From Micromonospora matsumotoense (lineage in GTDB: Bacteria > Actinomycetota > Actinomycetes > Mycobacteriales > Micromonosporaceae): DNA of 64,000 nucleotides. The notes beneath the pieces are model-generated. The model did no database searches and was not told where the DNA came from. It was given only the letters and a program-made list of their open reading frames with translations. Where the stretch lies: assembly GCF_900091525.1 (NCBI RefSeq), contig NZ_FMCU01000001.1, forward strand, positions 620,001 to 684,000, read 5' to 3'. Positions 882-44,583 of the stretch are shown here, piece by piece. The position numbers and the translations under genes were made by a program. How positions within the stretch are numbered: position 1 is the stretch's first letter; every line of letters starts with the position of its first letter.

Positions 882-4634
<3,753 letters not shown>

Positions 4635-9993: not shown

Positions 9994-10004
9994 CCTGCAC
10001 CACC

Positions 10005-10040: not shown

Positions 10041-10058
10041 CGTCGCTGCCGGGCCACC

Positions 10059-11860: not shown

Positions 11861-11876
11861 TGATACGACCGTATCA
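11861..11876. promoter_or_regulatory. Palindromic operator for the adjacent TetR regulator
   Basis: TGATACG-AC-CGTATCA, a perfect 7-bp inverted repeat with a 2-bp centre, in the 230-bp divergent region. It lies 29 bp before the tetR start and 185 bp before the esterase start. Size and symmetry fit a TetR-family dimer site. Assignment to this regulator is inferred from position. Confidence 0.7.
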
Positions 11877-11905
11877 GAAAAGTGTCTCCGAACTGGACGG
11901 TGCCC

Positions 11906-12526: not shown

Positions 12527-12598
12527 GCGACCGCCGGCACGCCGACGACCAGCAGTCGTCCGAAGGAGCCCACGGCCGGCGACGCCGGAGCACGAGGA

Positions 12599-12641
12599 CG
12601 GCGGTGGCCGGCGTCCCTGACAGGGAGGCCGGCCACCGCCG
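12599..12641. terminator. Bidirectional hairpin terminator, tetR/SRPBCC
   Basis: 14-bp perfect outer stem (CGGCGGTGGCCGGC) and, after a G-G mismatch, an inner 5-bp stem TCCCT-GAC-AGGGA. It sits between the convergent tetR and SRPBCC genes. Confidence 0.78.
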
Positions 12642-12669
12642 GGTGCGGGTGACGCGGGAAGGCGGCCGG

Positions 12670-24787: not shown

Positions 24788-24855
24788 GAGTTCTAGTGCG
24801 GTTTGGTGTCTGCCCGCACAGCGGATACCCCGGGGTATCGGGAAGAGTCATAGAC

Positions 24856-26025: not shown

Positions 26026-26966
26026 GCGGCAGTCGGATCGTCGCCCTCGGGCACTACCAACCCTCCCGGGTGGTGACCAACAACGACATCGCCCAGTTCG
26101 TCGACACCAACGACGAGTGGATCAGGGACCGGGTCGGCATCGTCAGCCGGCGGATCGCCGACGGCGAGACGGTGGCCGACATGGCCGCCGCCGCCGCCGA
26201 CAAGGCGCTGGCCAACTCGGGCCTCACCGCCGCCGACATCGACCTGGTGGTCGTCGCCACCTGCACGTCGATCGACCGCAGCCCCAACGTGGCCTGCCGG
26301 GTCGCCGCCAAGCTGGGCATCACCGCCCCGGGCGCGTTCGACCTCAACACCGCCTGCTCCGGCTTCGCCTACGCGCTGGGCACCGTCGACCACGCCATCC
26401 GGGCCGGCGCGTCCCGCAACGCCCTCGTCATCGGCGCCGAGAAGCTCTCCGACGTCACCGACTGGACGGACCGCTCCACCTGCATCATCTTCGCCGACGG
26501 CGCCGGCGCGGCGGTGGTCACCGCCACCACCGGCGACGAGCCGACCGGGATCGGGCCGGTGGTGTGGGGCTCCGCGCCGGACAAGAGCGACGCGGTACGC
26601 ATCGAGGGCTGGCGGCCGTACATCGCCCAGGAGGGGCAGTCGGTGTTCCGCTGGGCCACCACCGCGCTGGCCCCGCTGGCCCTCCAGGCGTGCGAGAAGG
26701 CCGGCGTCGACCCGTCCGAACTGGCCGCGTTCGTGCCGCACCAGGCCAACTCGCGGATCATCGACGGCATCGCCAAGCGGCTGAACATCCCGCAGGCGAT
26801 CATCGCCAAGGACATCGTCGAGTCCGGCAACACCTCGGCGGCGAGCGTGCCGCTGGCCCTGTCCAAGCTGGTCGAGCGGCGGGAGGTGCCCTCGGGCGCC
26901 CCGGTGCTGCTGTTCGGCTTCGGCGGCGGCCTGACCTACGCCGGTCAGGTCATCCGCTGCCCCTGA
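26022..26966 (+). CDS. fabH: 3-oxoacyl-ACP synthase III
   Basis: 314-residue condensing enzyme that starts fatty acid chains from acyl-CoA and malonyl-ACP. Catalytic triad intact: Cys112 in NTACSGFAYAL, His240 in VPHQANSR and Asn270 in GNTSAAS. The C-terminal glycine-rich FGFGGGLTYAGQV is complete. In actinobacteria FabH primer choice decides iso/anteiso branching. GGAGG precedes the ATG, which overlaps the fabD stop, so the two are translationally coupled. Confidence 0.96.
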   Translation: MSGSRIVALGHYQPSRVVTNNDIAQFVDTNDEWIRDRVGIVSRRIADGETVADMAAAAADKALANSGLTAADIDLVVVATCTSIDRSPNVACRVAAKLGITAPGAFDLNTACSGFAYALGTVDHAIRAGASRNALVIGAEKLSDVTDWTDRSTCIIFADGAGAAVVTATTGDEPTGIGPVVWGSAPDKSDAVRIEGWRPYIAQEGQSVFRWATTALAPLALQACEKAGVDPSELAAFVPHQANSRIIDGIAKRLNIPQAIIAKDIVESGNTSAASVPLALSKLVERREVPSGAPVLLFGFGGGLTYAGQVIRCP

Positions 26967-27042
26967 AGACCCGCCGCGGTCGGCGACCGCGGCGCACCGC
27001 CATCCGGCGGAGAACAAACCCCGATGAGAGGAACCCACCGCA

Positions 27043-27282
27043 ATGACCCGTGACGAGATCACCTCCGGCCTCGCCGAGATCCTCGAAGAGGTCGCCGGGG
27101 TGAACCCGGACGACGTGGCCGAGGGGAAGTCCTTCACCGACGACCTCGACGTCGACTCGCTCTCCATGGTGGAGGTCGTGGTCGCCGCCGAGGAGAAGTT
27201 CGGCGTCAAGATCCCGGACAACGAGGTGCAGAACCTGAAGACCGTCGGGGACGCCGTCAGCTTCATCGAGGCGCAGTCCTGA
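27043..27282 (+). CDS. acpP: Acyl carrier protein
   Basis: 79-residue acidic four-helix carrier with the phosphopantetheine site Ser39 in DLDVDSLSMVEVV. It carries growing chains for FabH and FabF. It lies 76 bp after fabH and ends one base before the fabF start, as in other actinobacterial fab operons. Confidence 0.96.
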   Translation: MTRDEITSGLAEILEEVAGVNPDDVAEGKSFTDDLDVDSLSMVEVVVAAEEKFGVKIPDNEVQNLKTVGDAVSFIEAQS

Positions 27283-27283
27283 T

Positions 27284-28510
27284 ATGAGTCGCGTCGACGT
27301 CGTCGTCACCGGGCTCGGCGCGACCACCCCGCTGGGCGGGGACGTCGCGTCGACCTGGGACGCCATGCTCGCCGGCCGCTCCGGGGTGAGTCCGCTCACC
27401 CAGGAGTGGGCCGGCCAGCTCCCGGTCCGGATCGCCGCCCAGCTCGCGGTGGAGCCGACCGAGGTGCTGGACCGGGTGAAGCTGCGCCGGCTGGACCGCT
27501 CGGAGGCGATCGCGCTCATCGCGGCGCAGCAGGCCTGGGCGGACTCCGGGCTCGCCGACTCCGGGCTGGACCCGGAGCGGTTGGGCGCCAGCGTGGGCTC
27601 GGGCATCGGCGGTGCCCTGACCCTGCTCGCGCAGGACGACATCCTGGAGGCGTCCGGCCCGCGCCGGGTCTCCCCGCACACCATCCCGATGCTGATGCCG
27701 AACGGTCCCGCCGCCTGGGTGGGGCTGGAGCTGGGCGCGCAGGCCGGGGTGCACTCGGTGGCGAGCGCCTGTGCGACCGGCGCGGAGGCGATCGCGCTCG
27801 GCCTGGACATGATCCGCTCCGGCCGGGCCGACGTGGTGGTGGCCGGCGGCACCGAGGCGGTCATCCACCCGCTGCCGATCGCCGGGTTCAGCTCCATGCG
27901 GGCCATGTCGACCCGCAACGACGAGCCGGAGCAGGCCTCCCGCCCGTGGGACAAGAGCCGGGACGGCTTCGTCCTCGGCGAGGGTGCCGGCATCGTGGTG
28001 CTGGAGCGGGCCGACCACGCCGCCGCCCGGGGCGCGCACATCTACGCCCGGCTCGCCGGTGCGGGCATCACCTCCGACGGGTACGACATCGTCCAGCCGC
28101 ACCCCGAGGGGGCCGGCGCGATCCGGGCCATCGCCAAGGCGATCGCCGACGCCGACGTGGCGAAGGCCGACATCGTGCACGTCAACGCGCACGCCACCTC
28201 GACCCCGGTGGGCGACCTGGCCGAGATCAAGGCGCTGCACCGGGCACTCGGTGACCATCCGGTGCTGACCGCCACCAAGTCGATGACCGGGCACCTGCTC
28301 GGCGCGGCCGGCGCGTTGGAGTCGATCGCCACCATCCTGACCATCCGCGATGGAGTCATCCCGCCGACGATCAACCTGGACGACCCGGACGACGGCCTCG
28401 ACATGGACGTCGCCGCGAACAAGGTCCGCCACCTGGACGTGCCGGCGGCGCTGAACAACTCGTTCGGCTTCGGCGGCCACAACGTCGCCCTGGTCTTCAC
28501 CCGCCCCTGA
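27284..28510 (+). CDS. fabF: 3-oxoacyl-ACP synthase II
   Basis: 408-residue elongating condensing enzyme. Catalytic Cys163 in VASACATGAEA, first His in NAHATSTPVGD and second His in TKSMTGHLLGAAGA; C-terminal FGFGGHN is intact. Starts immediately after acpP (ATG overlaps by spacing of one base), last gene of the fasR-fabDHPF unit and followed by a strong hairpin. Confidence 0.96.
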   Translation: MSRVDVVVTGLGATTPLGGDVASTWDAMLAGRSGVSPLTQEWAGQLPVRIAAQLAVEPTEVLDRVKLRRLDRSEAIALIAAQQAWADSGLADSGLDPERLGASVGSGIGGALTLLAQDDILEASGPRRVSPHTIPMLMPNGPAAWVGLELGAQAGVHSVASACATGAEAIALGLDMIRSGRADVVVAGGTEAVIHPLPIAGFSSMRAMSTRNDEPEQASRPWDKSRDGFVLGEGAGIVVLERADHAAARGAHIYARLAGAGITSDGYDIVQPHPEGAGAIRAIAKAIADADVAKADIVHVNAHATSTPVGDLAEIKALHRALGDHPVLTATKSMTGHLLGAAGALESIATILTIRDGVIPPTINLDDPDDGLDMDVAANKVRHLDVPAALNNSFGFGGHNVALVFTRP

Positions 28511-29401: not shown

Positions 29402-30331
29402 TCAGCGGGTCGCCGGCACCGCTTCCCGGGCCAGGGTGATCGCGCCGAGCAACGCCGCGTCGTCGGCGAACCGGGACAGCACCACGTCGGGGCGGTGCGG
29501 CAGCACCTCGGCCAACCGGTCGACGAGCAGCCCCCGGATCAGGGTGCTGCCGGCGACCCCGCCGACCAGCACCACCCGCTGCGGATCGAGCAGCAGGCAG
29601 CAGGTGACCAGGTGCCGGGCCAGCTCGTCGACCCGGGCGGTGAGCGCGTCCCGGGCCGCGCCGGGCAACTCGGCGGCGGCGGCCAGCCCGGCCGCCTGCC
29701 CGGCCACCCCCAGCTCGTCGGCCAACCGGTCCAGCGCCCGGCCGGAGAAGTCCAGCTCCAGCATGGTGCCGGGCCACGGGCCACCGGCCACCGCGTACCC
29801 GATCTCGCCGGCCGCGCCCCGGTGACCGGCGAGCACCGCGCCGCCCACGGTGACGGCCGCCGCCACACCGGTGCCGATCCCCACCACCAGGCCGGGGTCG
29901 GCGTCGCGCAGGGCACCGAGCCGCAGCTCGGCCAGGGCGGCGGCGTTCAGGTCGTTGTCCACCGCCACCCGGGCCACCCCGAGGGTGTCGGAGACGGCGT
30001 CGGCCAGTCGCAGCCGTTCCCAGCCGGGCACGTTGGGGGCCAGGTCGATGCCGTCGGGGCGCACCACCCCCGGTGAGGCCACGCCGGCCGCCACGAGCGG
30101 CCCGCCGACCTCGGCGACCAGCGCGGCGGCCAACTCCAGGGCCCGGTCCAACGCCTGCGGGGCACCCCGCTCGGCGTGCGTGGCGATCCGCTTGTGGGCC
30201 AGCAGCCGACCGGTGCCGTCGGCCACCCCGACCGCCATCTTGGTCCCGCCGAAGTCGATGCCGAGCAGCAGTTCGGCGGTGCGGGTCCCGGTGTCGGCCC
30301 GGCCGGCCAACCGCACGGTCACCTGGTCCAC
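29402..30331 (-). CDS. ROK-family sugar kinase-like protein
   Basis: About 309 residues. The ATP motif LLGIDFGGTKMAVGVADGTG lies at the N-terminus, substrate/catalytic region VAVDNDLNAAALAE follows, then GLVVGIGTGVAAAV and GHRGAAGEIGYAV. The zinc-finger cysteines (CxCGxxGC) found just after that point in most ROK sugar kinases are absent here. ROK kinases phosphorylate glucose, fructose, N-acetylmannosamine and similar sugars. Last gene of the catabolic cluster, 91 bp after the lyase gene. The GTG at 30331 is my choice; GTG at 30322 and longer forms overlapping the lyase gene are possible. Confidence 0.8.
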   Translation of the reverse strand: MDQVTVRLAGRADTGTRTAELLLGIDFGGTKMAVGVADGTGRLLAHKRIATHAERGAPQALDRALELAAALVAEVGGPLVAAGVASPGVVRPDGIDLAPNVPGWERLRLADAVSDTLGVARVAVDNDLNAAALAELRLGALRDADPGLVVGIGTGVAAAVTVGGAVLAGHRGAAGEIGYAVAGGPWPGTMLELDFSGRALDRLADELGVAGQAAGLAAAAELPGAARDALTARVDELARHLVTCCLLLDPQRVVLVGGVAGSTLIRGLLVDRLAEVLPHRPDVVLSRFADDAALLGAITLAREAVPATR

Positions 30332-30422
30332 CGTCGCCGCCGCACCCGGTCCGCCGGTCGCGTCCGCGACGGTCTCCCCGCTCGGGCAGGCGGACGGACT
30401 TCGGATCGCCCACTCGACGCGC

Positions 30423-31874
30423 TCATCGGCCGGCCACCTCGGCGGCGACCGTGTCCAGCGCCTCGTCGGCGCGGGCCAGCCGGTCGCGGATCGCGGCGAG
30501 GCGGTCGGAGACACCGGTGAACGCGACCCGCAGGGTGCCGACCTGGGCACGGACGGCGGCGGCTCCCGGCCCGTCCACCTGCACCCGGTCCAGCACCAGG
30601 TCGGGGCGGACGGCGGCGGCGATCAGGTCGGCGACGGCGTCGTCGGTCAGCCGGTCGGTGAGCCCCTCGGCGGCGGCCCGGACCCCGTCGGCGGTCCAAC
30701 TGTCCGGCGCACCGGCCCGGACCAGCCGGCCGACGACCGAGTGGGCGGCCCGGAACGGCACCCCGTGCCGGGTCAACGCGTCGGCCGCCGCGGTGGTGGT
30801 GGCCCCGGACGCGACGATCTCCTCGCGGCTGGGCGGGTTCAACGGCTCCAACTCGGCGAGGAAGCCGCCGACCAGGGCGAAGAACCGGTCCGCCCGGTCG
30901 TTGCTGTCCCAGAGCCGGACCTGCACGTCGGTGGTGGCGTTGTTGGAGTCCTCCCACCAGGCCGCCCCGACGTTGTTGAGCACCGACGCGGCGTCGGCGG
31001 CGCTCGCACCGGCCATCGACACCAGGTGCTCCAGCACGACCGGGTTGCGCTTCTGCGGCATGATGCTGCTGCCCTGGGTGAAGTCGCCGGGGGTGGCCAC
31101 CCACTGCCAGGTCAGCCAGTCCATCAGGGTGCGGGCCAACCGGGCGCCGGTGGCCAGGGCCTGGGCGTTGAGGGTGCCCACCCGGACCAGGTGATCGGCC
31201 CCGGCGACCGCCTCGTACGAGTTGGTGACCAGGCCGTCGAAGCCGAGCAGTTCGGCCACCCGGGCCGGGGCGATGGCCAGGTCGGTGCCGGCGAACGCGC
31301 AGGAGCCCAACGGCGAGACGTTGAGCTGGTCGATCAGGTCGGCGTACGCGGCAGCCTCACCGGCCAGCGCCTCGGCGTAACCGGCCAGGGCGTGCCCGAT
31401 GGTGGTGGGCTGGGCCGGTCGGCGGTGGGTGTAGCCGGTGATCACCACGTCGGCGTACCGGTCGGCGGCGTCCAGCGCGGTCCGGCCGGTGGTCAGCACC
31501 CGGTCCAGCACATCGAGCAGTTGGCCGCGCAGGAGCATCCGGAACACCCCGGCGTCCAGGTCGTTGCGGCTGCGGGCCATCTGCACGTCCAGTTCGGACG
31601 GGGGCACGCCGCACGCCTCGGCGAGCTTCTTCTCCAGCAGGTAGTAGGTGTCCTCGAAGCTGCCGTCGAACGCCGGGGCGGGGGTGGTGTCGGCGCGCAG
31701 GGCGGCCAGCCCGCGCAGCAGCCGGGCACCCCGCTCGGCGGGGACGAGCCCTTGCTCGGTCAGCATCACCACGTGTGCCTGGCTGGCGCGCACCATCGCC
31801 GGGTAGAGCTGGCCGACGTGGTGGTCGTAGGTCGGGGCCAGGTGGTGCCGCTGGTAGGTGGTCAGCTCGCTCAT
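30423..31874 (-). CDS. Argininosuccinate-lyase-like enzyme
   Basis: 483-residue member of the aspartase/fumarase superfamily, closest in pattern to ArgH. Motifs: MARSRNDLDAGVFRMLLRG, the general-acid region GYTHRRPAQPTTIG, and the signature loop TQGSSIMPQKRNPVVLEH. These enzymes eliminate fumarate from N-succinyl compounds. No arginine-biosynthesis gene lies near; instead it sits in a transporter/hydrolase cluster, 9 bp after the amidohydrolase gene. The N-terminal substrate-binding segment differs from housekeeping ArgH. It may therefore cleave another N-succinyl-amine (EDDS lyases are a known example of such drift). AAGGA precedes the ATG. Confidence 0.82.
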   Translation of the reverse strand: MSELTTYQRHHLAPTYDHHVGQLYPAMVRASQAHVVMLTEQGLVPAERGARLLRGLAALRADTTPAPAFDGSFEDTYYLLEKKLAEACGVPPSELDVQMARSRNDLDAGVFRMLLRGQLLDVLDRVLTTGRTALDAADRYADVVITGYTHRRPAQPTTIGHALAGYAEALAGEAAAYADLIDQLNVSPLGSCAFAGTDLAIAPARVAELLGFDGLVTNSYEAVAGADHLVRVGTLNAQALATGARLARTLMDWLTWQWVATPGDFTQGSSIMPQKRNPVVLEHLVSMAGASAADAASVLNNVGAAWWEDSNNATTDVQVRLWDSNDRADRFFALVGGFLAELEPLNPPSREEIVASGATTTAAADALTRHGVPFRAAHSVVGRLVRAGAPDSWTADGVRAAAEGLTDRLTDDAVADLIAAAVRPDLVLDRVQVDGPGAAAVRAQVGTLRVAFTGVSDRLAAIRDRLARADEALDTVAAEVAGR

Positions 31875-31883
31875 GGCGGTTCC

Positions 31884-32894
31884 TTACTTCCTTCCGGGCC
31901 GGGACGCGGCGCGTGGGCCGGGTCCCGGGTTCTCGGCTGGTCGGTCGGTCAGGCCCAGCAGCCGTTCGGCGTTACCGGCGAAGATCGCGCGGAGGTGGTC
32001 GTCGGGCATCCCCAGCTCGCGGCAGACCCGCAGCTGGTCGTCGAGGTAGCGGGTGACGTAGCCGCGCGGGAACCACGACGAGTCGCTGCCGTACACGATG
32101 CGCTGCGGGCCGATCGTCTCGTAGCAACGGCGGAACAGGTCCTCCAGCGTCAGCTTGTACGGCATCCAGCGCACCCACTGGTTGGAGCCGGAGGTGTCGA
32201 CGTGGATGTTGGGGCAGCCCCAGGCGGCGAAGAGCAGATCCTGCACGTGCTGGACGCCGAAGTGCGGCACCACCACGTGCAGCTCGGGGAAGCGGCGGGC
32301 CATCCGGGCCAGCTCGTCGGGGTTGCCGTACCGGCCGAAGGAGAGGCCACCGGCGCTGCCGTAGTGGCCGATGTGGATCAGCACCGGCACGCCGAGGCGC
32401 TGGGCGGTGGACCAGAGCGGGTCCAGGTCGGTGTGGTCCAGCGGGCCGCGCAGCAGCGGGGCGAACAGCTTCAACCCGCGCAGGCCCCGTTCGGTCACCG
32501 CGCGTTCCAGCTCGTCGGCGGCCCCCGGCGAGTACGGGTCGTGGTGGGCGAAGCCGAGCAGCAGGTCCGGGTGGCGGTCGACCACGTCGGCGACGGTGTC
32601 GTTGCCGCCGCCGGTGACGAAGACGGCCCGCCGCACCTGCACCGCGCGCAGCTCGTCGGCCCACCGGTCGGCCTCGTCCTGCCAGCGCGGGGCGGGCGGC
32701 TCGGGGTCGGGGAAGCTCCACGCCTGCCGCCACGCCCGCGCGTACGGGGCGGAGCCGGCGGCCCGGACGGCCCGTTCGTGCTCCCCGCCCGGGTGCATCC
32801 CGGCGGCGTCCTCGCAGGCGTGGATCGTCTCGTCGGTGCCGATCCGGAAGTGCAGGTGGAAGTCGACGATGTCGAGTCCCCGGTCCACGCTCAT
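31884..32894 (-). CDS. Metal-dependent amidohydrolase (PF04909-like)
   Basis: 336-residue TIM-barrel hydrolase or decarboxylase. Metal-ligand motifs: FHLHFRIG (HxH) at the N-terminus, IHIGHYGS, VVPHFGVQH and the late Asp in YGSDSSWFPRGY. Members hydrolyse amides or lactones or decarboxylate aromatic acids. The ATG overlaps the creatininase-family stop (ATGA) and GGGGGAG lies upstream, showing tight coupling. The substrate is unknown; position suggests a step after the creatininase-like enzyme. Confidence 0.85.
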   Translation of the reverse strand: MSVDRGLDIVDFHLHFRIGTDETIHACEDAAGMHPGGEHERAVRAAGSAPYARAWRQAWSFPDPEPPAPRWQDEADRWADELRAVQVRRAVFVTGGGNDTVADVVDRHPDLLLGFAHHDPYSPGAADELERAVTERGLRGLKLFAPLLRGPLDHTDLDPLWSTAQRLGVPVLIHIGHYGSAGGLSFGRYGNPDELARMARRFPELHVVVPHFGVQHVQDLLFAAWGCPNIHVDTSGSNQWVRWMPYKLTLEDLFRRCYETIGPQRIVYGSDSSWFPRGYVTRYLDDQLRVCRELGMPDDHLRAIFAGNAERLLGLTDRPAENPGPGPRAASRPGRK

Positions 32895-33913
32895 CGCACT
32901 CCCCCGGTCGATCCGTCCGCCGCCGCAGCACCGGTCGGCGCCGGGCCGTCCGCCGTCGGCGCCGGGCCGTCCGCCGTCGCGCCCGGGAGCGGGTCGGTGG
33001 TGGGTGGGGCCGGCGGTGGGGCGGCCACCCAGGCGGCGACGATCTCCCGCAGCCGCGCGCCGGCCGTGGCGCGGACCTGACGGCCGGCCGCCTCGGAGGC
33101 CAGCGAGATGTGCCCGGACCAGCCCTGCCAGGGATCGGGACGGGACTCGACCAGCACGTACGGGTGGCCGACCGGCAGCTTCGGCTTCGGCGGCAGGTCG
33201 GCCACGGCGTCGAGGCGGACCGCGCCGGGATCGAACCCGAGCACCCCGGAGGTCTCGTACGCGCCGCCGTGCCCACGGGCGGTCAGCGGCCCGTACAGGT
33301 CGGTGGTCTCCGCCGGGGTGACCAGTTGGAACCAGTTGACCAGCAGCAGGCTGGCGGTGCGCCGGCCGGAGACCCATTCCATCGCGGCCCGCACGGTGGA
33401 CATGTTGGCGTCGTGGCCGTTGACGATCAGCAGCCGGGGGAAGCCGGCGGCGACGATCCCCTCGATCACGTCGGCGAGGTAGCCGACGGCGATCTCCGGC
33501 CGGATCGACACCGTCCCCGGCCAGGGTCGGGTCTGCCCCGGGCAGGCCGCGTACGGCACCGCCGGGAAGAGCACCCCGCGCGGCCCGGGGAAGCCGGTGG
33601 CCGCCTCCCCGGAGGCGCCGGCGGCCGACGCGGCAGCGCCACCGGCCCCGGCGGCCGGATCGGATGTGCCGCCGGCCCCGGCGGTCGGGCCGGATGTGCC
33701 GCCGGCCCCGGCGGTCGGGCCGGACCCGCCGCCGGCCTCGGCGGCGAAGCCTTCGGCGAGGATCAGGTCGGTGCCCAGCGGCAGGTGCGGGCCGTGCCAC
33801 TCGACGGCGCCGACGGGCAGCACCGCGTAGTCCGCCGCCGCCGCGACGGCGGCCAGCTCACCGCCGGGGATCCGGGTGGCGGGCAGCAGCCCACCACCGG
33901 CCGGCCAGGTCAC
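32891..33913 (-). CDS. Creatininase-family amidohydrolase with repeat insert
   Basis: 340-residue creatininase-fold hydrolase. Metal-site motifs: VLPVGAVEWHGPHLPLGTD, PWPGTVSIRPE, LLIVNGHDANMSTVRAA and RGHGGAYETSGVLG, all as in creatinine amidohydrolases and related enzymes. Between TDLILAEGFAAEA and FPGPRGVLFPAVPY is an insert of about 45 residues made of ten-residue repeats rich in Gly/Ala/Thr. The C-terminus has a second short Ala/Pro repeat tail. GTG at 33913 overlaps the permease stop. Reactions in the family include opening of cyclic amides and other ring cleavages; not necessarily creatinine. Confidence 0.85.
   Translation of the reverse strand: MTWPAGGGLLPATRIPGGELAAVAAAADYAVLPVGAVEWHGPHLPLGTDLILAEGFAAEAGGGSGPTAGAGGTSGPTAGAGGTSDPAAGAGGAAASAAGASGEAATGFPGPRGVLFPAVPYAACPGQTRPWPGTVSIRPEIAVGYLADVIEGIVAAGFPRLLIVNGHDANMSTVRAAMEWVSGRRTASLLLVNWFQLVTPAETTDLYGPLTARGHGGAYETSGVLGFDPGAVRLDAVADLPPKPKLPVGHPYVLVESRPDPWQGWSGHISLASEAAGRQVRATAGARLREIVAAWVAAPPPAPPTTDPLPGATADGPAPTADGPAPTGAAAADGSTGGVR
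33631..33750. repeat. 30-bp tandem repeat in the creatininase-family gene
   Basis: Two identical 30-bp units (33661-33690 and 33691-33720) flanked by diverged ones on each side. The coding strand gives decapeptides of the type GPTAGAGGTS. The unit length keeps the frame, as in the E1 insert. Confidence 0.85.
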
Positions 33914-35691
33914 GCCGTCCACTTCACTGCCTCCCGGGCGGCCCGGCCGCCGTTCTGCAAGCGGCCGGAGAACACCATCACGATGAAGATCAACACCACC
34001 TGGAGCATGCCGTACGCGGCGGCGGTACCGACCTCGAACGAGTACATCCGGTTGTTGATCTCGACCGAGATGGGTGCCGTCTCCGAGGTGTAGATCAGCA
34101 CCGAGGCGACGAACTCGCCGACCCCGTTGACGAAGGCGAGCAGCGCGCCGGCCAGCACACCGGGCAGCATCAGCCGCAGGGTGACCGTGCCGAACGCCCG
34201 CCACCAGGGGGCCCCGAGGTTGCGGGCGGCCTCCTCCAGCGAGGGGTCGAGCTGGGCCAGCGTCGCCGAGCTGGACCGGAACACCAGCGGCAGGAACCGC
34301 ACGAAGTACGCCAGCGGCATGATCCAGAAGGTGCCGATCAGCACCTGGCCGAAGCTGAACGCGTTGCCGGTGCTGAACGCCGAGATCAGGTTGATCGCCA
34401 CCACCGTGCCGGGCAGCGCCCAGGCCAGCATGACCGCCACGTCGAGCAGCCCGCGCCCCCGGAAGTCGAGCCGGCGCACCGCGTACGCGATCAGCACGCC
34501 GACCACCACGCAGCCCACCGTGGCGAGCACGCTCATCCGCAACGAGTTGAGGATCGGCCGGTACGCGCCCGGGTCGGAGAAGATCGTGACGAAGTTCTGC
34601 ATGGTGTACTCCGACGGGATCACCTCGGTGGTCCACGAACCGTCCCGGGAGAAGGCGACCAGCGCGATGGTCGCCACCGGGGCGAGCAGCACCAGGGTGG
34701 CCAGCACCGAGGCGGTCAGCGCCAGCCACTTGCCCAACGGGTTGGTGATCTCGCGGCGGTGCGAGGCGACGCCCTTGGACTGGGAGCGGTAGCTGCGCCG
34801 CCCCTCGTACCAGCGCATGCCGAGCAGGAACAGCACCGAGGCCACCGCGAGCACCGAGGCGTAGGTGGAGGCCATCGGCAGGTCGCCGTTGGTGCGGTTG
34901 ATGTAGATCTGCATGGTCATCGTCCGGTCCACCCCGAACAGCAACGGCGCGGTGTACGACGCCAGCGACGTCATGAAGACCAGCAGCGACGCGGAGACCA
35001 GGGCCGGGGTGAGCATCGGCAGCAGCACGGTGCGCCAGACCCGGACCCGGCTGGCACCCAGGTTGTAGGCCGCCTCCTCCACCGACGGGTCCATCCCGGT
35101 CAGGGCGGCGGACGCGGCGAGGTAGAAGAACGGGTACATGGTGAAGGTGTGCACCACCAGCACCCCGCCGATGCCGGTGAACGGGAGCACCGGGTCCTCG
35201 GTGCCGAGCAGGTGTTGCAGGCCGCGCGGCAGGATGCCGGTCTCGCTGTAGAGCAGCTGGAACGAGATCGCCCCGATCAGCGGCGGCAGCGCCGCCGGCA
35301 CCAGGATGATCGCCTCGATCAGCCGCCGGCCGGGGAAGGAGAAGCGCTTGAGTAGGAAGGCCATCGCCACCCCGACGATCCCGCAGAGCAGCACGCTGGC
35401 CGCCGAGATCATCAGTGAGGTGAGCAGCGCCGACCGGGCCACCCCGGTGCCGGTGACGAACTCGGAGTAGTTGGCCACCCCGTCCACCCCGACGCTCTCG
35501 GCGAAGGTGGCGAACATCGGCTGCACCACGTAGCCGAAGAGGATCAGCACCAGCGGGAAGACCAGCAGGTACGGGAACCAGGGCGAGTTGGCGTTGAGGC
35601 CGCGCCGGGGCCGGCCGGCCTTCGGTGGGGCGGGGTCCGTGGTGACCGGCGGCACGGTGGCCGGGCTCGGCGTGGCGGGAATGGTGCTCAC
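33910..35691 (-). CDS. ABC transporter double permease (Fe3+/2-AEP/spermidine type)
   Basis: 593-residue fusion of two BPD-type permease domains, each with about six helices and its own EAA loop: EEAAYNLGASRVRVWRTVLL in the first half and EEAARNLGAPWWRAFGTVTL in the second. Fused permeases are typical of Fbp/PhnU-like importers. The N-terminus is a Pro/Thr-rich cytoplasmic tail. With the ATPase upstream and the binding protein it forms a complete importer. Start ATG at 35691; its stop overlaps the creatininase GTG. A 115-bp gap to the ATPase gene holds a duplicated repeat. Confidence 0.92.
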   Translation of the reverse strand: MSTIPATPSPATVPPVTTDPAPPKAGRPRRGLNANSPWFPYLLVFPLVLILFGYVVQPMFATFAESVGVDGVANYSEFVTGTGVARSALLTSLMISAASVLLCGIVGVAMAFLLKRFSFPGRRLIEAIILVPAALPPLIGAISFQLLYSETGILPRGLQHLLGTEDPVLPFTGIGGVLVVHTFTMYPFFYLAASAALTGMDPSVEEAAYNLGASRVRVWRTVLLPMLTPALVSASLLVFMTSLASYTAPLLFGVDRTMTMQIYINRTNGDLPMASTYASVLAVASVLFLLGMRWYEGRRSYRSQSKGVASHRREITNPLGKWLALTASVLATLVLLAPVATIALVAFSRDGSWTTEVIPSEYTMQNFVTIFSDPGAYRPILNSLRMSVLATVGCVVVGVLIAYAVRRLDFRGRGLLDVAVMLAWALPGTVVAINLISAFSTGNAFSFGQVLIGTFWIMPLAYFVRFLPLVFRSSSATLAQLDPSLEEAARNLGAPWWRAFGTVTLRLMLPGVLAGALLAFVNGVGEFVASVLIYTSETAPISVEINNRMYSFEVGTAAAYGMLQVVLIFIVMVFSGRLQNGGRAAREAVKWTA

Positions 35692-35703
35692 AGTGTCACC
35701 TCG

Positions 35704-35750
35704 GTTCGCGACTGCGGGGCTCGCAAAACCGGCTCACTCCTCGCGCTCAC
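35704..35750 (-). repeat. 47-bp direct repeat, copy 2 of 2 in transcription order
   Basis: Identical over 47 bp to 35764-35810, offset 60 bp. On the minus strand it starts GTGAGCGCGAGGAGTGAGCC and ends GCAGTCGCGAAC. It lies just before the permease start. Confidence 0.9.
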
Positions 35751-35763
35751 CCGCGTCTCCTTC

Positions 35764-35806
35764 GTTCGCGACTGCGGGGCTCGCAAAACCGGCTCACTCC
35801 TCGCGC

Positions 35807-35810
<4 letters not shown>
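35764..35810 (-). repeat. 47-bp direct repeat, copy 1 of 2, overlapping the ATPase stop codon
   Basis: The first four bases (minus strand GTGA) contain the TGA stop of the ABC ATPase, so the repeat provides the end of the gene. Each copy has an internal GGAGTGAGC and an AT-poor body with a single TTTT. Possibly an interspersed intergenic element; see findings. Confidence 0.9.
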
Positions 35811-36880
<1,070 letters not shown>

Positions 36881-37035
36881 GATGTCCTCTCCTTCATGCG
36901 GTACCGGCCTGGCCGGGCGGGCGGGGGTGCGGGGACCGGGCCGGTGGGCACGGGGTACGGATCACGGGACGCCGTCGGGCCGTCGCCGCAGCGATGGGAG
37001 CGAGTTCCGGTCGGGCCGTCGCGTCGCGGGCGGGC

Positions 37036-37066
37036 GGTGCCGGGGGCGGGACGTGCCCCCGGCACC
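37036..37066 (-). terminator. Hairpin between the binding-protein and ATPase genes
   Basis: 12-bp perfect stem GGTGCCGGGGGC / GCCCCCGGCACC with a 7-base loop, eight bases after the binding-protein stop on the minus strand. Such intra-operon hairpins usually let the binding protein be made in excess over the membrane parts. Confidence 0.68.
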
Positions 37067-37073
37067 CGTGCGG

Positions 37074-38117
37074 TCAGCCCTTGTTCTTGATCTGGCTGTT
37101 CCAGTTGTTGATCCACTCGGTCTCGTTCTTGCCGATGATGTCCCAGTTGACGTCGAGCGGCTTGAGGTTGAGCTGGGCCAGCCACTCCGGCTGCTGGGCG
37201 ATCTCGACGGCCGGGATCTGGAAGTAGTCCTTGGCCAGGTCGGCGCGGAGCGTGTCGTCGAAGAGGAACTCGATGAACTTCTGCGCGCCGGCGCTGTTGC
37301 CGCCCTTGACCGCAGCCAGCCCGTCGACCAGCACCGGGGCGCCGGAGGCCGGCATCACGTAGCCGAACGGCATGTTGGACTGGTTGGCCTGGAGCAGGAT
37401 GTCCTGGAGGTTCCAGGCGCTGAGGGTGCCCTGCTGGCGCGAGAGCTTGAGATAGAGGTCGGCCGGGTTGGCCGCGTACGCGCCGGTGTTGGCGTCCAGC
37501 TTCTTGAGCCAGTCGTAACCCGGCTGCGGGTTGCTGCCGTCCGGCGACTGCCGCATGATCATCGCGGCGTAGATCGACCGCATGGTGCCCGAGGCGGCCA
37601 CGTCCCGGATGATGATCTTGTCTTTCCACTCCGGCTTCAGCAGGTCGTCCCAGTCCTTCGGGGCCTGCTCCGCGGTCAGCGCCTTGTTGTTGTACATGAT
37701 GACCTCGGGCAGCAGGATCTCACCGAACCAGCGCCCCTCGGCGTCCTTGTACTTGGCGTCCATCTTGCCGGCGAACGCGGGCTGCCAGGCGGTCAGCAGG
37801 TCCTCGCCGGCACCGGCGGACAGCCCCTGCTGGGTGCCGCCCCACCAGACGTCGGCCTGCGGGTTGGCCTTCTCGGCCCGGACCCGCTCCAGGATCTCCT
37901 GGGCGCCCAGGTTGAGGATCTCCACCTTCCCCTTGTACTCGGGGTACTTGGCGGTGAACTTGTCCACGACGAAGGTGGAGACCTTCTTGTCGCGGGCGGT
38001 GTAGATCGTCAGCTTCTCCGTCTCACCTGCGGCCGTGTCGTCCGAGCCGCCGCCGCAGGCGGTGCCGGCGGCGAGGACGGTGGCGAGCGCTCCGGCGAGT
38101 AGAAGTCGACGTCTCAT
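37074..38117 (-). CDS. Extracellular solute-binding lipoprotein
   Basis: 347 residues. Lipoprotein signal (RRRLLLAGALATVLAAGTAC) with the lipobox Cys near residue 21. The mature protein is a family 1 binding protein: LTIYTARDKKVSTFVVDKF, LNLGAQEILERVRAEKANPQ, DVWWGGTQQGLSAG, IMYNNKALTAEQAPKDWDDL, AASGTMRSIYAAMIM. The pattern fits the Fe(III)/2-aminoethylphosphonate/polyamine group; ferric-binding Tyr pairs are not evident, so iron is not a safe call. It lies 48 bp after the ROK regulator gene on the same strand. Confidence 0.9.
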   Translation of the reverse strand: MRRRLLLAGALATVLAAGTACGGGSDDTAAGETEKLTIYTARDKKVSTFVVDKFTAKYPEYKGKVEILNLGAQEILERVRAEKANPQADVWWGGTQQGLSAGAGEDLLTAWQPAFAGKMDAKYKDAEGRWFGEILLPEVIMYNNKALTAEQAPKDWDDLLKPEWKDKIIIRDVAASGTMRSIYAAMIMRQSPDGSNPQPGYDWLKKLDANTGAYAANPADLYLKLSRQQGTLSAWNLQDILLQANQSNMPFGYVMPASGAPVLVDGLAAVKGGNSAGAQKFIEFLFDDTLRADLAKDYFQIPAVEIAQQPEWLAQLNLKPLDVNWDIIGKNETEWINNWNSQIKNKG

Positions 38118-38165
38118 GGGGTACCTCCGAGGTGTTGGGGAGAGGAGCTCAGCGGTGCGGTCAGG

Positions 38166-39329
38166 TCAGGGGGCCGGCAACAGGGTGGGCAGTCCGGCGG
38201 CGGCGGCGGAGAGGGCGTAGCTGACCGCGCCGTGCAGCACGGCCCGGTCGCCGAGTACGGCCCGGCGTACCTCGGTGGTGCTGGGTACGGCGGCGGTGAC
38301 CAGGCCCTGGAGCCGGTCGACGGCGGCGTCGTCGAGGTCGGCGGCGGCGCCGCTGAGCAGCACCCGGCCGGGGTCGATGACGCAGACGCAGGAGACGATC
38401 AGCCGGGACCAGGCGTGCAGCACCTCGTCGAGGTAGCCGGCGGCGCGCGGGTCGGTGGCGGCCAGGGCGACCAGCGCGCGGACCGGCGAGTCGGGGCGAC
38501 GGCCCGGGGCCAGCGCGACCACCCGCTCGGCGATCGCGTTCTCCGACCAGCGGGCCTCGAACGGGCCGATCCCGTCGTGTCCCCGGCCGGCCGGGTCCAG
38601 CGGCAGGAAACCCACCTCCCCGGCCGCGCCCCGGGCACCCCGCCGGACCTGGCCGTCGAGCACCAGGCCCGCGCCGATGCCGTCGGCGACGTGCAGCAGC
38701 AGCAGGTCGGCGACGTCCATGCCGGCCCCGGCGGCGTGTTCGCCGGCCGCCATCAGGTTGACGTCGTTGTCCACCACCACGGGCACGCCCAGCGCCCGCT
38801 GGACCGACTCCCCTATCGGACGGCCCTCGATCAGGCCGACCGAGGGGGCCAGCCGGACCGCGCCGCCGGAGATGACGCCGGGCGCGGCGATGGCCACCCC
38901 GCGCAGCGCCGGCAGGCCGTCCCCGGCCAGCTCGGGCACCGACCGGCAGATGGTGTCGACGATGTCGCCGGTCAGCCGGACCGCGCGGTGGGCGACCACC
39001 GCACCGTCGCTGTCGGCGATCTCGCAGCTGATCCGGGACGGCTCCAGGGAGACGGCGGCGACCAGCTCGGCCCGGGGGTTGAACTCCAGCATCGCCCGTG
39101 GGCGGCCGGCCCGGGAGGCGCCCGGACCGCGTTCGATCAGGTATCCCTCGGCGATCAGGTCACGCACGAGCGGGGTGAGCGTCGCGGGGCTCAGGCCGGT
39201 GAGCTCGGTCAGCTCGGCCCGGGAGAGCAGCCGGACCTGGCGGGCGGTGGAGATCACGGATAACCGCTTGATCTCCTTCGACCGCTCCCGGCTCACCGGG
39301 CTCGTTGGTGGCGTCACCACGTCTGTCAC
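38166..39329 (-). CDS. ROK-family transcriptional repressor
   Basis: 387 residues. N-terminal winged helix (LSRAELTELTGLSPATLTPL, VRDLIAEGYLIERGPGASRA) followed by a ROK sugar-sensing domain (VAIAAPGVISGGAV, VVVDNDVNLMAAGE, LLLHVADGIGAGLVLDG, GARGAAGEVGFLPLDPAGRG). The kinase-type zinc cysteines are missing, as in the ROK kinase at the other end of the cluster. First gene of the cluster, so likely its local regulator, responding to a sugar or sugar derivative. A perfect AT-rich palindrome lies 161 bp upstream. Confidence 0.9.
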   Translation of the reverse strand: MTDVVTPPTSPVSRERSKEIKRLSVISTARQVRLLSRAELTELTGLSPATLTPLVRDLIAEGYLIERGPGASRAGRPRAMLEFNPRAELVAAVSLEPSRISCEIADSDGAVVAHRAVRLTGDIVDTICRSVPELAGDGLPALRGVAIAAPGVISGGAVRLAPSVGLIEGRPIGESVQRALGVPVVVDNDVNLMAAGEHAAGAGMDVADLLLLHVADGIGAGLVLDGQVRRGARGAAGEVGFLPLDPAGRGHDGIGPFEARWSENAIAERVVALAPGRRPDSPVRALVALAATDPRAAGYLDEVLHAWSRLIVSCVCVIDPGRVLLSGAAADLDDAAVDRLQGLVTAAVPSTTEVRRAVLGDRAVLHGAVSYALSAAAAGLPTLLPAP

Positions 39330-39489
39330 ACTTCCTTCCTACGGCGAACGAATTAAAGAGTCAAGTAACGAGTCCGTCTCGACCCGGCCACCGGCAGCCG
39401 TCGGAGCAGCGAAAACGTCCGCAAATGGGGGCAGTGGGCGGGTTCGGGTCACCGTCGCGTCGCAACGCAGGACATCCCGGACACCGCCC

Positions 39490-39518
39490 TATTTCTTTCT
39501 TCTGCAAAGAAAGAAATA
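39490..39518. promoter_or_regulatory. AT-rich 12-5-12 palindrome, candidate ROK operator
   Basis: Arms TATTTCTTTCTT and AAGAAAGAAATA are perfectly complementary, centre CTGCA. It stands out in a roughly 70 percent GC region, in the 417-bp divergent space between the ROK regulator (start 39329) and the PIG-L gene (start 39747). AT-rich palindromes are typical of ROK repressors such as NagC/Mlc. The rest of this 417-bp region holds only the promoter below; I see no gene in it. Confidence 0.65.
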
Positions 39519-39530
39519 CCTTCCAAAGCA

Positions 39531-39560
39531 TTGACGCACCACCACGCCGGTCCCTAGCGT
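39531..39560 (+). promoter_or_regulatory. Sigma-70-like promoter toward the PIG-L gene
   Basis: TTGACG, 18-bp spacer, TAGCGT. The -35 box starts 12 bp after the palindrome, so a bound repressor would hinder polymerase. Predicted leader about 180 nt. Confidence 0.55.
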
Positions 39561-39746
39561 CACCGAGCGAAGGCCTTCCAGTGTGTACGGAACCCGTACC
39601 GCTGCCGTATCCGGTGCACCGCGTCCGAGGACGCCCACCGTTCCCCGTTCCCACCGCCTCACCGTCCACTGACGACCCCGCGTCGGACGCCCCGCGTCCG
39701 ACGATGACGGTCGCTGCCCGGACGTCGTGGTTCCGGAAGGATCTGC

Positions 39747-42440
39747 ATGCGCATCAAGGGTTTCCTGCTACCCACCGCACTCGCCCTGGCCGTGGCCGGG
39801 GCACCTGCCACCGCCGTCGCCGCCCCGGCCGACGTCCGCCCCGCCAAGGCCGTCGACCTCGACGTCCTCTTCGTCAGCGCCCACCCCGACGACGAGGCCG
39901 GCAGCCTCGCCACCCTCGGCCAGTGGAAGGAGAAGTACGGCGCCAAGGCCGGCGTCGTCACCATCACCCGCGGCGAGGGCGGCGGTAACGCCGTCGGTCT
40001 CGAAGAGGGCCCGCCGCTGGGCATCATCCGCGAACGCGAGGAACGCACCGCGATCGGCAAGGCCGGCGTGGAGAACCTCTACAACCTCGACCGGGTCGAC
40101 TTCTGGTACACCGCGTCCGCCCCGCTGTCCGAGCAGATCTGGGGACACGACGACACCCTGGGCCAGATCGTCCGGGTCATCCGGACCACCCGGCCCGAGA
40201 TCATCATGACGATGAACCCGTCGCCGACCCCGGGCAACCACGGCAACCACCAGCAGGCCGCCCGGTTCGCCGCCGAGGCGTTCGCCGCCGCCGCCGACCC
40301 GAAGGCCTTCCCCGAGCAGCTCAGCGCCGAGGGCCTCACCCCGTTCCGGGCCGCGAAGTTCCTGCGTAGCGGCGGCACCGGCACCTCCGCCGCCGGGCCG
40401 CAGTGCGCGACCAGCTTCACCCCGACCGTCCCCACCGATCAGGTCTTCGGCGTCTGGGAGGGCACCCCCAGCGCCAGCGGGAAGACCTGGGCCGAGATCG
40501 AGGTCGACGCCCGCCGGGAGTACGTCACCCAGGGCTGGGCCGGCACCGCCGCCGCCCCCACCGACCCGACGAAGATCCGCTGTGACTTCTACACCCTGAT
40601 CGACAGCCGCGTCCCGTACGACCCGGCGGACACCTCCCCGGAGGCGATCCTGCGCGGCTCGGTGCTGCCGCCGGCGACCGGTGGCCTGCCCAAGGGCAGC
40701 GAGCTGTACCTCACCACCGACCGGTTCGACCTCGCCCCCGGTGCGACCGTCGAGGTCACCGCGCACCTGCGCGCCCCGCACAACCGGACCCTGGCCAAGC
40801 CCCGGATCGACCTGCGGCTGCCGGCGGGCTGGAAGGCCAAGGGCTCCGGCGTGCTGAACAACGACGTGCCGGCGGGCAAGGAGCGGACCAGGACGTTCAC
40901 CGTCACCGTCCCGGCCGACGCCGCCACCAACGAGCAGCAGCTCATCGGGGCCACCCTGACCACCCGCCAGGGTGTCGGGCGCACCGACCGGGCCGTCCGG
41001 GTGGTCGCCGACGTCCGGGGCACCCTGGAGCCGCTGCCCGAGGTGGGCATCTTCCGCGACTGGGCCGGCGACGGCGGGTACCCGCAACTGGACACCCTGA
41101 TCAAGCCGGTGCTCACCATCGGCTCCGGTAAGCAGCGCACGGTCCGCATCGACCTGCGCAACCACGGCCGGGTCAGCCGCGACGGCACCGTCACCCTCGG
41201 CCTGCCGGCCGGCTTCACCGCCGACGCGACCACCAAGAGCTACCCCGCGCTGGCCCCCGGCGCGACCGGTGCGGTCACCTTCACCGTCACCAACACCGAC
41301 GCCACCCTGCCGACCGCCAACGAGGGCGGCACGGACGGCGACTACGGCATCACCATCACCACCACCAGCGCCGCCGGCAGCACCGTGGAGAACGGCGCGC
41401 TGGAGATCGTGCCGACCACCGAGGTCCCGGCCGCCGGCAACGGCACCGTCGATGGCGTCGCCTCCCCCGGCGAGTACCCCGGCCCGGAGCTGGACCTCTC
41501 CCGCATCTGGGAGGGACAGGCCACCACGCCGCAGGACGCCTCGGCCACCGGCCGGATCGCCTGGACCCCCGACGCCCTGAAGGTGTTCGTCCAGGTCACC
41601 GACGACGTGCTCGGCAAGAAGGTGGTGCCGCAGGACTGCAAGCGGCAGCGCCGCACCGACAGTGTGGAGATCATCGTCGACCCGAAGGGGAACTCGGCGG
41701 ACACCTCCACCGCGTTCAAGGCGGGCATCTTCCCGATCACCGACGACCCGGCCAACGGCAACCCGCCCTGCTGGCAGCGCGACGCCGACAACCGGCAGGG
41801 CCCGGGGGCGACGACCGCACCCGGAATGACCGTGGTCAGCAAGGTCAGCTCCCCCTACACCGGGTACACCATCGAGACGAGCATCCCGTTCGCGGTGCTG
41901 CCCGACGCGGTGGACCCGGCCCGGATGGGTCTCAACGTGCTGGTCTACGACTCGGACACCCAGGACCTCAGCTCGCAGTCCCGGCTGGGCTGGTCCACCT
42001 TCACCGGCGTCCGGGCCGACCCGTACCGCTACGGTCTGGCCACCCTGCCCGGCTACCAGCCGGCGGCCCGGCAGCCCAGCGCGCCGGTCTTCCCGGACAC
42101 CTCCGCCCGCAGCGTGCTCAGCCCGCAGACCATCGCCCAGTCGGCCGTGGACGGGGTGGCCCCGGCCGCCGTGCCCCGGCTGAAGAACTCGGCGCTGCGG
42201 CTGACCTCGGCCCACCGGGTCACCGACGGGGTGCAGGTCACCCTGCGCGCCGACCGGGCCGGCACCGCCTACCTGTACGCCTGGGACGGCGACACGGCCC
42301 AGGGTGAGCGCACCGTACGGATGGCCGCCGGTGACCGGGTCACCGTGACGGTCCCGGTCAGCGGGGGCACCCCGACGTCGCTGCTGGCCGCCTTCGAGGG
42401 CGGCGGCGCCGCCGTGGCCCAGCAGGTCGCGCTGGGCTGA
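39747..42440 (+). CDS. Secreted PIG-L deacetylase with NEW3-like and CBM9-like domains
   Basis: 897 residues. Signal peptide (KGFLLPTALALAVAGAPATA). PIG-L/LmbE zinc deacetylase domain (about 35-300): AHPDDE at 45-50 and the distal zinc His in GNHGNHQQAARFA. Two beta-sandwich regions follow (about 325-430 and 455-565; DLAPGATVEVTAHLRAPHNR, PALAPGATGAVTFTVTNTDA), NEW3-like. A CBM9-like domain comes next (about 568-770: GTVDGVASPGEYPGPELDLS to YTIETSIPFAVLP) and a C-terminal beta tail. Likely removes N-acetyl groups from extracellular amino-sugar polymers or conjugates. GGAAGGA precedes the ATG. Convergent with a GH3 enzyme. Confidence 0.85.
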   Translation: MRIKGFLLPTALALAVAGAPATAVAAPADVRPAKAVDLDVLFVSAHPDDEAGSLATLGQWKEKYGAKAGVVTITRGEGGGNAVGLEEGPPLGIIREREERTAIGKAGVENLYNLDRVDFWYTASAPLSEQIWGHDDTLGQIVRVIRTTRPEIIMTMNPSPTPGNHGNHQQAARFAAEAFAAAADPKAFPEQLSAEGLTPFRAAKFLRSGGTGTSAAGPQCATSFTPTVPTDQVFGVWEGTPSASGKTWAEIEVDARREYVTQGWAGTAAAPTDPTKIRCDFYTLIDSRVPYDPADTSPEAILRGSVLPPATGGLPKGSELYLTTDRFDLAPGATVEVTAHLRAPHNRTLAKPRIDLRLPAGWKAKGSGVLNNDVPAGKERTRTFTVTVPADAATNEQQLIGATLTTRQGVGRTDRAVRVVADVRGTLEPLPEVGIFRDWAGDGGYPQLDTLIKPVLTIGSGKQRTVRIDLRNHGRVSRDGTVTLGLPAGFTADATTKSYPALAPGATGAVTFTVTNTDATLPTANEGGTDGDYGITITTTSAAGSTVENGALEIVPTTEVPAAGNGTVDGVASPGEYPGPELDLSRIWEGQATTPQDASATGRIAWTPDALKVFVQVTDDVLGKKVVPQDCKRQRRTDSVEIIVDPKGNSADTSTAFKAGIFPITDDPANGNPPCWQRDADNRQGPGATTAPGMTVVSKVSSPYTGYTIETSIPFAVLPDAVDPARMGLNVLVYDSDTQDLSSQSRLGWSTFTGVRADPYRYGLATLPGYQPAARQPSAPVFPDTSARSVLSPQTIAQSAVDGVAPAAVPRLKNSALRLTSAHRVTDGVQVTLRADRAGTAYLYAWDGDTAQGERTVRMAAGDRVTVTVPVSGGTPTSLLAAFEGGGAAVAQQVALG

Positions 42441-44310: not shown

Positions 44311-44583
44311 CCAACCCGCGCCGAAGATCAGCGGCAACCCGACCAGGTCACGCCATGGGCGGAGGGTGCCCGTCCCCGACCGGGTGTCCGGCTGACCCGG
44401 CCCTCCTGGCCGCTGGATGGCCGGTCCGGGTGAGCAGGCTCACCCAACTCCGGGACACCGACCGAGCGCAGCGCGAAGGTCTCCGCAGCCGGTCGCGCAG
44501 TGCCGGGGCAACCACCGACCCGGGTGAGCGGCTGACCCCTCGCGCGTGGCCCATCACCAGTGACCATCGCGCCTGGTACGCGA

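Follow-up and report, generated by a model that had tools for sequence, protein, structure and literature searches.

A conserved actinobacterial cluster built around an ArgH-like lyase, possibly for feeding on the bacillithiol backbone

Introduction

Bacillithiol, a widespread bacterial thiol in which cysteinyl-glucosamine is joined to malate, has a known route of synthesis. In other bacteria, systems that take up and use glutathione would be an instance of feeding on a foreign low-molecular-weight thiol, with enzymes entirely different from those considered here. According to PMC4101496, the bacillithiol conjugate amidase presumably makes the glucosaminyl-malate moiety (GlcN-maleate in that text) available for recycling. 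Here we describe an eight-gene cluster at positions 29402-39329 of a 64,000-nucleotide stretch (the window) on contig C27 of the 7.76 Mb genome of Micromonospora matsumotoense (G000), together with a divergent gene for a predicted secreted PIG-L deacylase. The cluster is real, conserved and undescribed in the literature searched, which was open-access only and yielded no paper on such a cluster or on breakdown of the glucosaminyl-malate backbone. It likely acts on a conjugate between an amino sugar and a four-carbon diacid. The best single reading, which we place a little below an even chance, is that this conjugate is N-acylglucosaminyl-malate, the backbone of bacillithiol.

The described systems closest to this locus each share only some of its features. 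The bacillithiol pathway (BshA, BshB, BshC and the conjugate amidase Bca) has a PIG-L member, a bshC gene that adjoins lyase relatives in some acidobacteria, and the glucosaminyl-malate intermediate proposed here. That pathway is one of synthesis, whereas breakdown is proposed here; the cluster PIG-L is secreted and multidomain, and the actinobacterial carriers tested are without BshC. N-acetylglucosamine utilisation (kinase, NagA, NagB) resembles the cluster in its sugar kinase, a deacylase candidate, a ROK regulator and the NagB-like gene found in seven loci. The cluster differs in that its lyase step would come first, in lacking a phosphotransferase system or a NagA-family protein, and in having an importer of the Fe3+/aminoethylphosphonate type. 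Argininosuccinate lyase (ArgH) has the fold and the invariant catalytic residues of the cluster lyase, which differs in its leaving-group residues and in the sub-cut-off scores of its actinobacterial members. The ethylenediamine-N,N'-disuccinate (EDDS) lyase of Chelativorans (PDB 6g3d and others) shares the superfamily core, sequence similarity and predicted fold. It differs in Asp290 and Tyr320, where the cluster lyase has Val and Asp, and in its place with ArgH in a tree; the sugar-kinase context is the cluster's own.

A conserved cluster with a recurring core

The cluster genes all lie on the minus strand, as read from the sequence with Pfam matches above curated cut-offs. They are listed here with the divergent gene and the intergenic repeat:

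38166-39329, minus: ROK-family repressor (Pfam ROK, 101.8 bits)
37074-38117, minus: substrate-binding lipoprotein of the Fe3+/AfuA/2-aminoethylphosphonate type (Pfam SBP_bac_6)
35807-36880, minus: ATP-binding cassette (ABC) importer ATPase (Pfam ABC_tran and TOBE_2)
33910-35691, minus: fused two-domain ABC permease (Pfam BPD_transp_1, two stretches)
32891-33913, minus: Creatininase-family hydrolase, accessory (Pfam Creatininase, 141.5 bits)
31884-32894, minus: Amidohydro_2 TIM-barrel metal hydrolase, accessory (Pfam Amidohydro_2, 130.2 bits)
30423-31874, minus: ArgH-like lyase, proposed to be a fumarate-forming glucosaminyl-malate lyase (Pfam Lyase_1, 111.2 bits, and ASL_C2)
29402-30322, minus: ROK-family kinase (Pfam ROK, 113.5 bits)
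39747-42440, plus: PIG-L (LmbE-type) deacylase, predicted to be secreted, carrying NEW3 and CBM9 domains and reading away from the repressor (Pfam)
39490-39518, unstranded: 12-bp perfect inverted repeat with a 5-bp spacer, a candidate operator in the ROK/PIG-L intergenic region

A preliminary description of this DNA had reported eight co-directional genes with stop-start overlaps and 9 bp before the lyase, and sequence and Pfam matches agree. The permease and creatininase genes overlap by 4 bp (GTGA, 33910-33913), as do the creatininase and amidohydrolase genes (ATGA, 32891-32894), and the amidohydrolase is separated from the lyase by 9 bp (31875-31883). The ROK kinase more likely starts at the GTG near 30322 than at 30550, which leaves a gap of about 100 bp after the lyase. 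That description was right about the eight genes and overlooked the divergent PIG-L gene as a ninth part of the cluster.

It had also proposed a search for the same neighbourhood elsewhere, which shows the arrangement to be conserved. A scan for the lyase family, with one genome per species, retained the best 79 of 238 matching loci, 66 of them actinobacterial; the counts that follow refer to these 66 and are not population frequencies. All eight genes are present in 19 loci, 15 of which have PIG-L too, and all but the amidohydrolase in another 15, of which 13 have PIG-L. Three further loci of these two kinds reach a contig end before the repressor. Another 24 loci have repressor, importer and lyase with a PfkB kinase and no creatininase; 16 of them add the amidohydrolase but no PIG-L (six with a NagB-like gene), and eight add PIG-L but no amidohydrolase. 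The other eight are cut by a contig end (L012, L023, L036, L042, L048, L052), decayed (L027) or differently laid out (L065). ROK relatives occupy the repressor position in 60 of the 66; five of the remaining six are cut by a contig end and the sixth is L065. Of the 59 actinobacterial loci that have a repressor and at least 2.6 kb past it, 36 carry PIG-L next to the repressor.

These gene-set counts define the recurring core as repressor, importer, lyase and a sugar kinase drawn from either of two unrelated families, ROK or PfkB. The creatininase occurs only with the ROK kinase and is absent from PfkB-type loci, and only half of the four main gene sets include the amidohydrolase; both are accessory to the cluster. 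The eight genes and the divergent PIG-L form a conserved cluster whose co-occurrence is beyond chance. Conservation bears out, in outline, the uptake-and-breakdown role first suggested for the locus, and does not support counting the two hydrolytic steps as part of its core.

The apparent exclusion between PIG-L and amidohydrolase in PfkB-type loci (16 with amidohydrolase only, eight with PIG-L only, none with both and none with neither; Fisher 1.4e-6) is not counted as strong evidence. In the lyase tree the eight PIG-L-bearing loci form one clade (100/100) nested among the other PfkB-type loci. The swap is therefore one event, and the Fisher value does not count.

The cluster is rare, being carried by two of 296 sampled Actinomycetota with the window genome included (five candidates scored per genome). 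The closest match to the window lyase is 98% identical; the nearest named relatives are Micromonospora proteins at no more than 93%, and the nearest named loci are likewise from Micromonospora. A decayed copy in Micromonospora sp. ATCC 39149 (L027, 7778-11207) retains the repressor together with fragments of PIG-L, amidohydrolase and lyase, with no importer match. The Phytohabitans suffuscus locus (L066, 3975-11417) gives only overlapping partial matches to repressor and lyase, such as a frame shift or a misassembly might produce.

A lyase of the fumarate-forming superfamily, probably not an arginine enzyme

The Lyase_1 domain and the SSxMPxKxN signature place the cluster lyase in the fumarase/aspartase/ArgH superfamily. 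In an alignment of 52 rows (21 actinobacterial, 14 acidobacterial and three Chloroflexota lyases, with 14 true ArgH), the catalytic residues SRN, TH, SSxMPQKxN and E are invariant across all four groups. Since these fumarate-forming residues are kept, part of the lyase substrate is probably a four-carbon diacid.

The arginine function is a poor fit. Against the argH equivalog TIGR00838 the window lyase scores 214.7 bits, below the cut-off of 279.5, and the other actinobacterial lyases 197-238. A separate ArgH encoded in the window genome reaches 560 bits, compared with 214.8 for the cluster lyase. Separate ArgH proteins (557-638 bits) are present in 13 of 14 further carriers, making 14 of 15 genomes with the window's; in the fragmented metagenome-assembled genome (MAG) G005, the sole strong ArgH match is the L078 lyase itself. 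Asp335, Tyr365, Gln370 and Lys373 of the window genome's ArgH, leaving-group residues that are conserved in true ArgH and have a role in arginine binding, are replaced in actinobacterial and acidobacterial lyases by Val, Asp, Thr/Glu and Val/Leu. Gln267, Val279, His283 and Asp309 (window numbering) are common to all three lyase groups at 93-100%. The separate true ArgH and the changed leaving-group residues together argue that this member of the fumarate-forming superfamily is not the arginine enzyme. The fumarate-type elimination of the preliminary description has support in outline.

Among solved structures EDDS lyase is the best sequence match (168 and 232 bits, about 30% identity) and the nearest fold to the predicted lyase structure (Foldseek 3e-24 versus 1e-19 for ArgH). 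Its Asp290 and Tyr320 correspond to ArgH Asp335 and Tyr365, where the window lyase has Val279 and Asp309; both are changed in an engineered EDDS lyase whose PDB title gives the variant as D290M/Y320M. In a quick tree EDDS lyase groups with ArgH, apart from the cluster lyases (support 95, both on long branches). Relatives of the cluster lyase at 39-40% identity also occur in two Bacillota MAGs (L068 and L069, about 10001-11431) and may act on another substrate.

A sugar kinase tied to the lyase, and accessory hydrolases

The most direct link between two of the genes is a fusion. In eight of the 24 PfkB-type loci that hold a repressor, lyase and PfkB kinase form one open reading frame of 764-836 amino acids. 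These loci (L050, L051, L055, L056, L061, L062, L063 and L067) make up the whole of one clade, with hosts in Actinotalea, Brachybacterium, Tessaracoccus, Galactobacter, Helcobacillus and a Propionibacteriaceae MAG. The fusion is direct evidence that lyase and kinase work in one pathway; it suggests that the kinase takes the product of the lyase, which would then probably be a sugar. The sugar-like phosphorylation proposed earlier gains support in outline from the same fusion.

A gene resembling glucosamine-6-phosphate deaminase (NagB) closes the cluster in seven loci, six of the PfkB type and L052. Together with the relatives of PIG-L that act on N-acylglucosamine cores, this argues that the sugar is probably an amino sugar. 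In the ROK kinase, Tyr replaces the His of ExGH, the usual ROK substrate motif, in all 38 aligned rows. In locus L077 a ROK protein, an N-acetylglucosamine-kinase-like gene of the BadF type (102 of 370 bits) and an amidohydrolase stand in a row (coordinates 3544-4581 and 4633-5649) 4 kb before a lyase relative.

The remaining proteins are less readily assigned. The binding lipoprotein scores 88.9 bits against NCBIfam phnS2, far below the cut-off of 392.75, and its PDB relatives include a pyridoxal-phosphate-binding protein and 4r72. The creatininase-family protein falls below the creatininase, MftE and IolN equivalog cut-offs (TIGR04448, 72.5 bits against 235), and the amidohydrolase has no NCBIfam match at E <= 0.001. 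Two attempts to read a function were abandoned: the amidohydrolase model (pLDDT, the predicted local distance difference test, 81) matched decarboxylases, lactonases and hydratases alike, and profile searches for solved relatives of both hydrolases gave distant members only.

The secreted PIG-L protein and its surroundings

The window PIG-L protein is 897 amino acids long, with an N-terminus that by eye resembles a signal peptide. Its PIG-L (PF02585, 75.5 bits against a cut-off of 28.2), CBM9_1 (79.1) and NPCBM_assoc (54.9) matches are all above cut-off. Against the BshB1 model TIGR04001 it reaches 38.9 bits, below the cut-off of 182.5. PMC4101496 describes the characterised members of the PIG-L superfamily as acting on cores of N-acetyl- or N-acylglucosamine.

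The inverted repeat between the divergent genes is of restricted distribution. A similar repeat at the same distance is confined to five close loci (L002-L005 and L037), with changes on both arms, and Arthrobacter-type loci have different repeats 20-86 bp before the repressor. A search for a conserved operator gave no repeat in most loci at the stringency used, and a scan of 39250-39800 for a sigma-70-type promoter and a terminator found no match.

Convergent with PIG-L lies a GH3-family lipoprotein-like gene (42580-44337, minus strand; Pfam Glyco_hydro_3, 255 bits). It was considered and rejected as a cluster part: a 94% identical neighbour occurs in L157, the one genome of the same genus checked, and none was found beside PIG-L in L158 or L159 (Dactylosporangium and Brachybacterium). 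The downstream flank (24796-28510, plus strand) holds three fatty-acid-synthesis-like genes, judged by eye to be FabD-, FabH- and FabF-like.

An acidobacterial link with bacillithiol

The connection with bacillithiol comes from lyase relatives outside the actinobacteria. A search of 119 Acidobacteriota genomes at 1e-60 matched 16, from which three (G058, G121 and G129; 34-35% identity, about 206-211 bits) were dropped as ordinary ArgH, leaving 13 carriers of relatives at least 46% identical to the L071 lyase. All 13 have bshC, the bacillithiol synthase gene, against 63 of the 119 overall (hypergeometric 1.3e-4, uncorrected for kinship); with the three dropped genomes counted back in, bshC is present in 15 of 16. 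In five of the 13 it lies within 12 kb of the lyase relative: G028 has it at 214 bp, G001 at 7.8 kb, and G002, G006 and G052 at about 11.2 kb. Four of these genomes belong to one kin group, and G028 has a different, convergent arrangement. BshA is above cut-off in the Pyrinomonadaceae G001, G002 and G006.

The acidobacterial neighbourhoods recall the actinobacterial one. In L071 a single strand carries bshC, an outer-membrane receptor, an SSF symporter, a PIG-L/NEW3 protein, the lyase and mutL, and in L150, L152 and L153 PIG-L is divergent from a ROK gene, receptor and lyase, which is the Micromonospora layout with a different importer. Across 15 acidobacterial loci inspected, PIG-L occurs in ten, the symporter in ten and a ROK protein in seven. 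Four (L149, L151, L154 and L155) have lyase and symporter with no PIG-L within the stretch inspected, and L156 has bshC and none of PIG-L, symporter and ROK. In L150 an amino-acid-permease-family gene (11428-12903; PF13520, 161 bits) directly follows the lyase.

Two further observations bear on the link. In the Anaerolineaceae locus L075 the gene directly after the lyase is BshB1-like, at 140.1 bits and below the cut-off of 182.5. The six actinobacterial carriers tested all have MshC and none has BshC, so that any actinobacterial use of the bacillithiol backbone would be catabolic.

A proposed pathway and its rivals

We infer the substrate from the neighbouring genes, and with it every reaction and the co-transcription and regulation of the cluster. 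Outside the cell the secreted PIG-L would release glucosaminyl-malate from its N-acyl form, for uptake by the ABC importer. Cleavage by the ArgH-like lyase would then yield fumarate and glucosamine, the latter becoming glucosamine-6-phosphate through the ROK kinase. The amidohydrolase may, as a guess, be a second, intracellular deacylase, because it replaces PIG-L in PfkB-type loci and because the order lyase, kinase, amidohydrolase, NagB mirrors the kinase-NagA-NagB route. The creatininase, again as a guess, may act by opening a glucosaminyl-malate lactam. A bacillithiol-backbone substrate would suit lyase, kinase, deaminase-like gene and PIG-L together.

Several observations weigh against that substrate. 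We know of no sugar-oxygen leaving group described in the fumarase/ArgH superfamily. The acidobacterial and Chloroflexota lyase relatives score 344-367 bits, above the argH cut-off, so that treating all the lyases as a single family rests on common residues and context, and the lyase tree, lacking a closer outgroup, cannot prove their common origin. The neighbours in Bacillota L068 and L069 differ, and no sugar genes were recognised there by eye. The predicted ROK kinase, with Tyr in place of the ExGH His, may take a sugar other than glucosamine. Cluster NagB-like proteins fall below the TIGR00502 cut-off of 236.9 (L049, 211.5 bits; L054, 208.4 bits), and NagB is above cut-off in only two of six carriers tested. 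In the window genome, whose cluster has no such gene, the search for a clear NagB gave a single 93-bit match only. By fold the amidohydrolase comes closest to decarboxylases and lactonases of PF04909, and not to NagA. The secreted PIG-L proteins reach only 37-45 bits on the BshB1 and Mca models (cut-offs 182.5 and 277.15), and their carbohydrate-binding domains could imply a larger glycan. As for bshC, it is unlinked in eight of the 13 acidobacterial carriers, its linkage in four kin genomes may reflect one event, and it is absent from the three Chloroflexota and one Bacillota carrier genomes tested; BshA is missing from G013 and G014, both MAGs, among five acidobacterial carriers tested.

Could the sugar be joined to the diacid through nitrogen? 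An N-linked amino-sugar succinate, such as a hexose-aspartate Heyns or Amadori product, would undergo C-N elimination to fumarate and an amino sugar, followed by the kinase and deaminase. Such an elimination is normal for the superfamily and is the reaction type of its closest solved relatives, ArgH and EDDS lyase; the kinase fusion and the NagB-like gene would be accounted for too. It is nonetheless unlikely: it leaves unexplained both the association with bshC and the BshB1-like neighbour in L075, as well as the PIG-L protein, whose superfamily acts on N-acylglucosamine according to PMC4101496. Improbable to a similar degree is a different substrate bearing a malyl- or succinyl-type group, an N-acylglucosamine glycoside or oligosaccharide that comes from a polymer or secondary metabolite and not from bacillithiol. 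The CBM9 and NEW3 domains of PIG-L would suit such a larger glycan, as would the TonB receptor in acidobacteria and the GH3 gene that adjoins PIG-L in the window genus. The bshC linkage counts against it, the GH3 gene did not turn up next to PIG-L in either of the two further genera checked, and we know of no such abundant compound.

The preliminary description had favoured an amide- or amine-linked conjugate with a sugar and a succinyl-amine part, for example an opine- or chelator-like compound, with EDDS-like substrates as one alternative. An imported aminopolycarboxylate such as EDDS, or an opine, cut by an EDDS-lyase-like enzyme, has in its favour that no solved structure matches better than EDDS lyase in sequence or fold, and at the level of fold the hint was sound. 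As a substrate either compound is very improbable, since the sugar kinase, the deaminase-like gene, PIG-L and the bshC linkage would go unexplained; the Val/Asp pair and the grouping of EDDS lyase with ArgH also count against it. That the lyase is a second argininosuccinate lyase, in a cluster importing argininosuccinate or a relative, can hardly be credited. The ASL_C2 domain, the similarity to TIGR00838 and the acidobacterial and Chloroflexota relatives above its cut-off point that way. Against it stand the separate ArgH of 14 of 15 genomes, the changed leaving-group positions, the absence of any other arginine gene from the cluster and the fusion of a sugar kinase to the lyase.

Implications

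The glucosaminyl-malate reading leads to a more specific and somewhat more tentative proposal: that mycothiol-making actinobacteria have a dedicated pathway for feeding on bacillithiol, with a new glucosaminyl-malate lyase that expels a sugar by C-O cleavage and is coupled, in one clade by fusion, to an amino-sugar kinase. If true, this would provide a testable enzyme for the gap in the breakdown of the glucosaminyl-malate backbone of bacillithiol and add a new leaving group to the fumarase/ArgH superfamily. It would give a function to a group of proteins labelled argininosuccinate lyase in databases, and would mean that one bacterial group feeds on the redox buffer of another.

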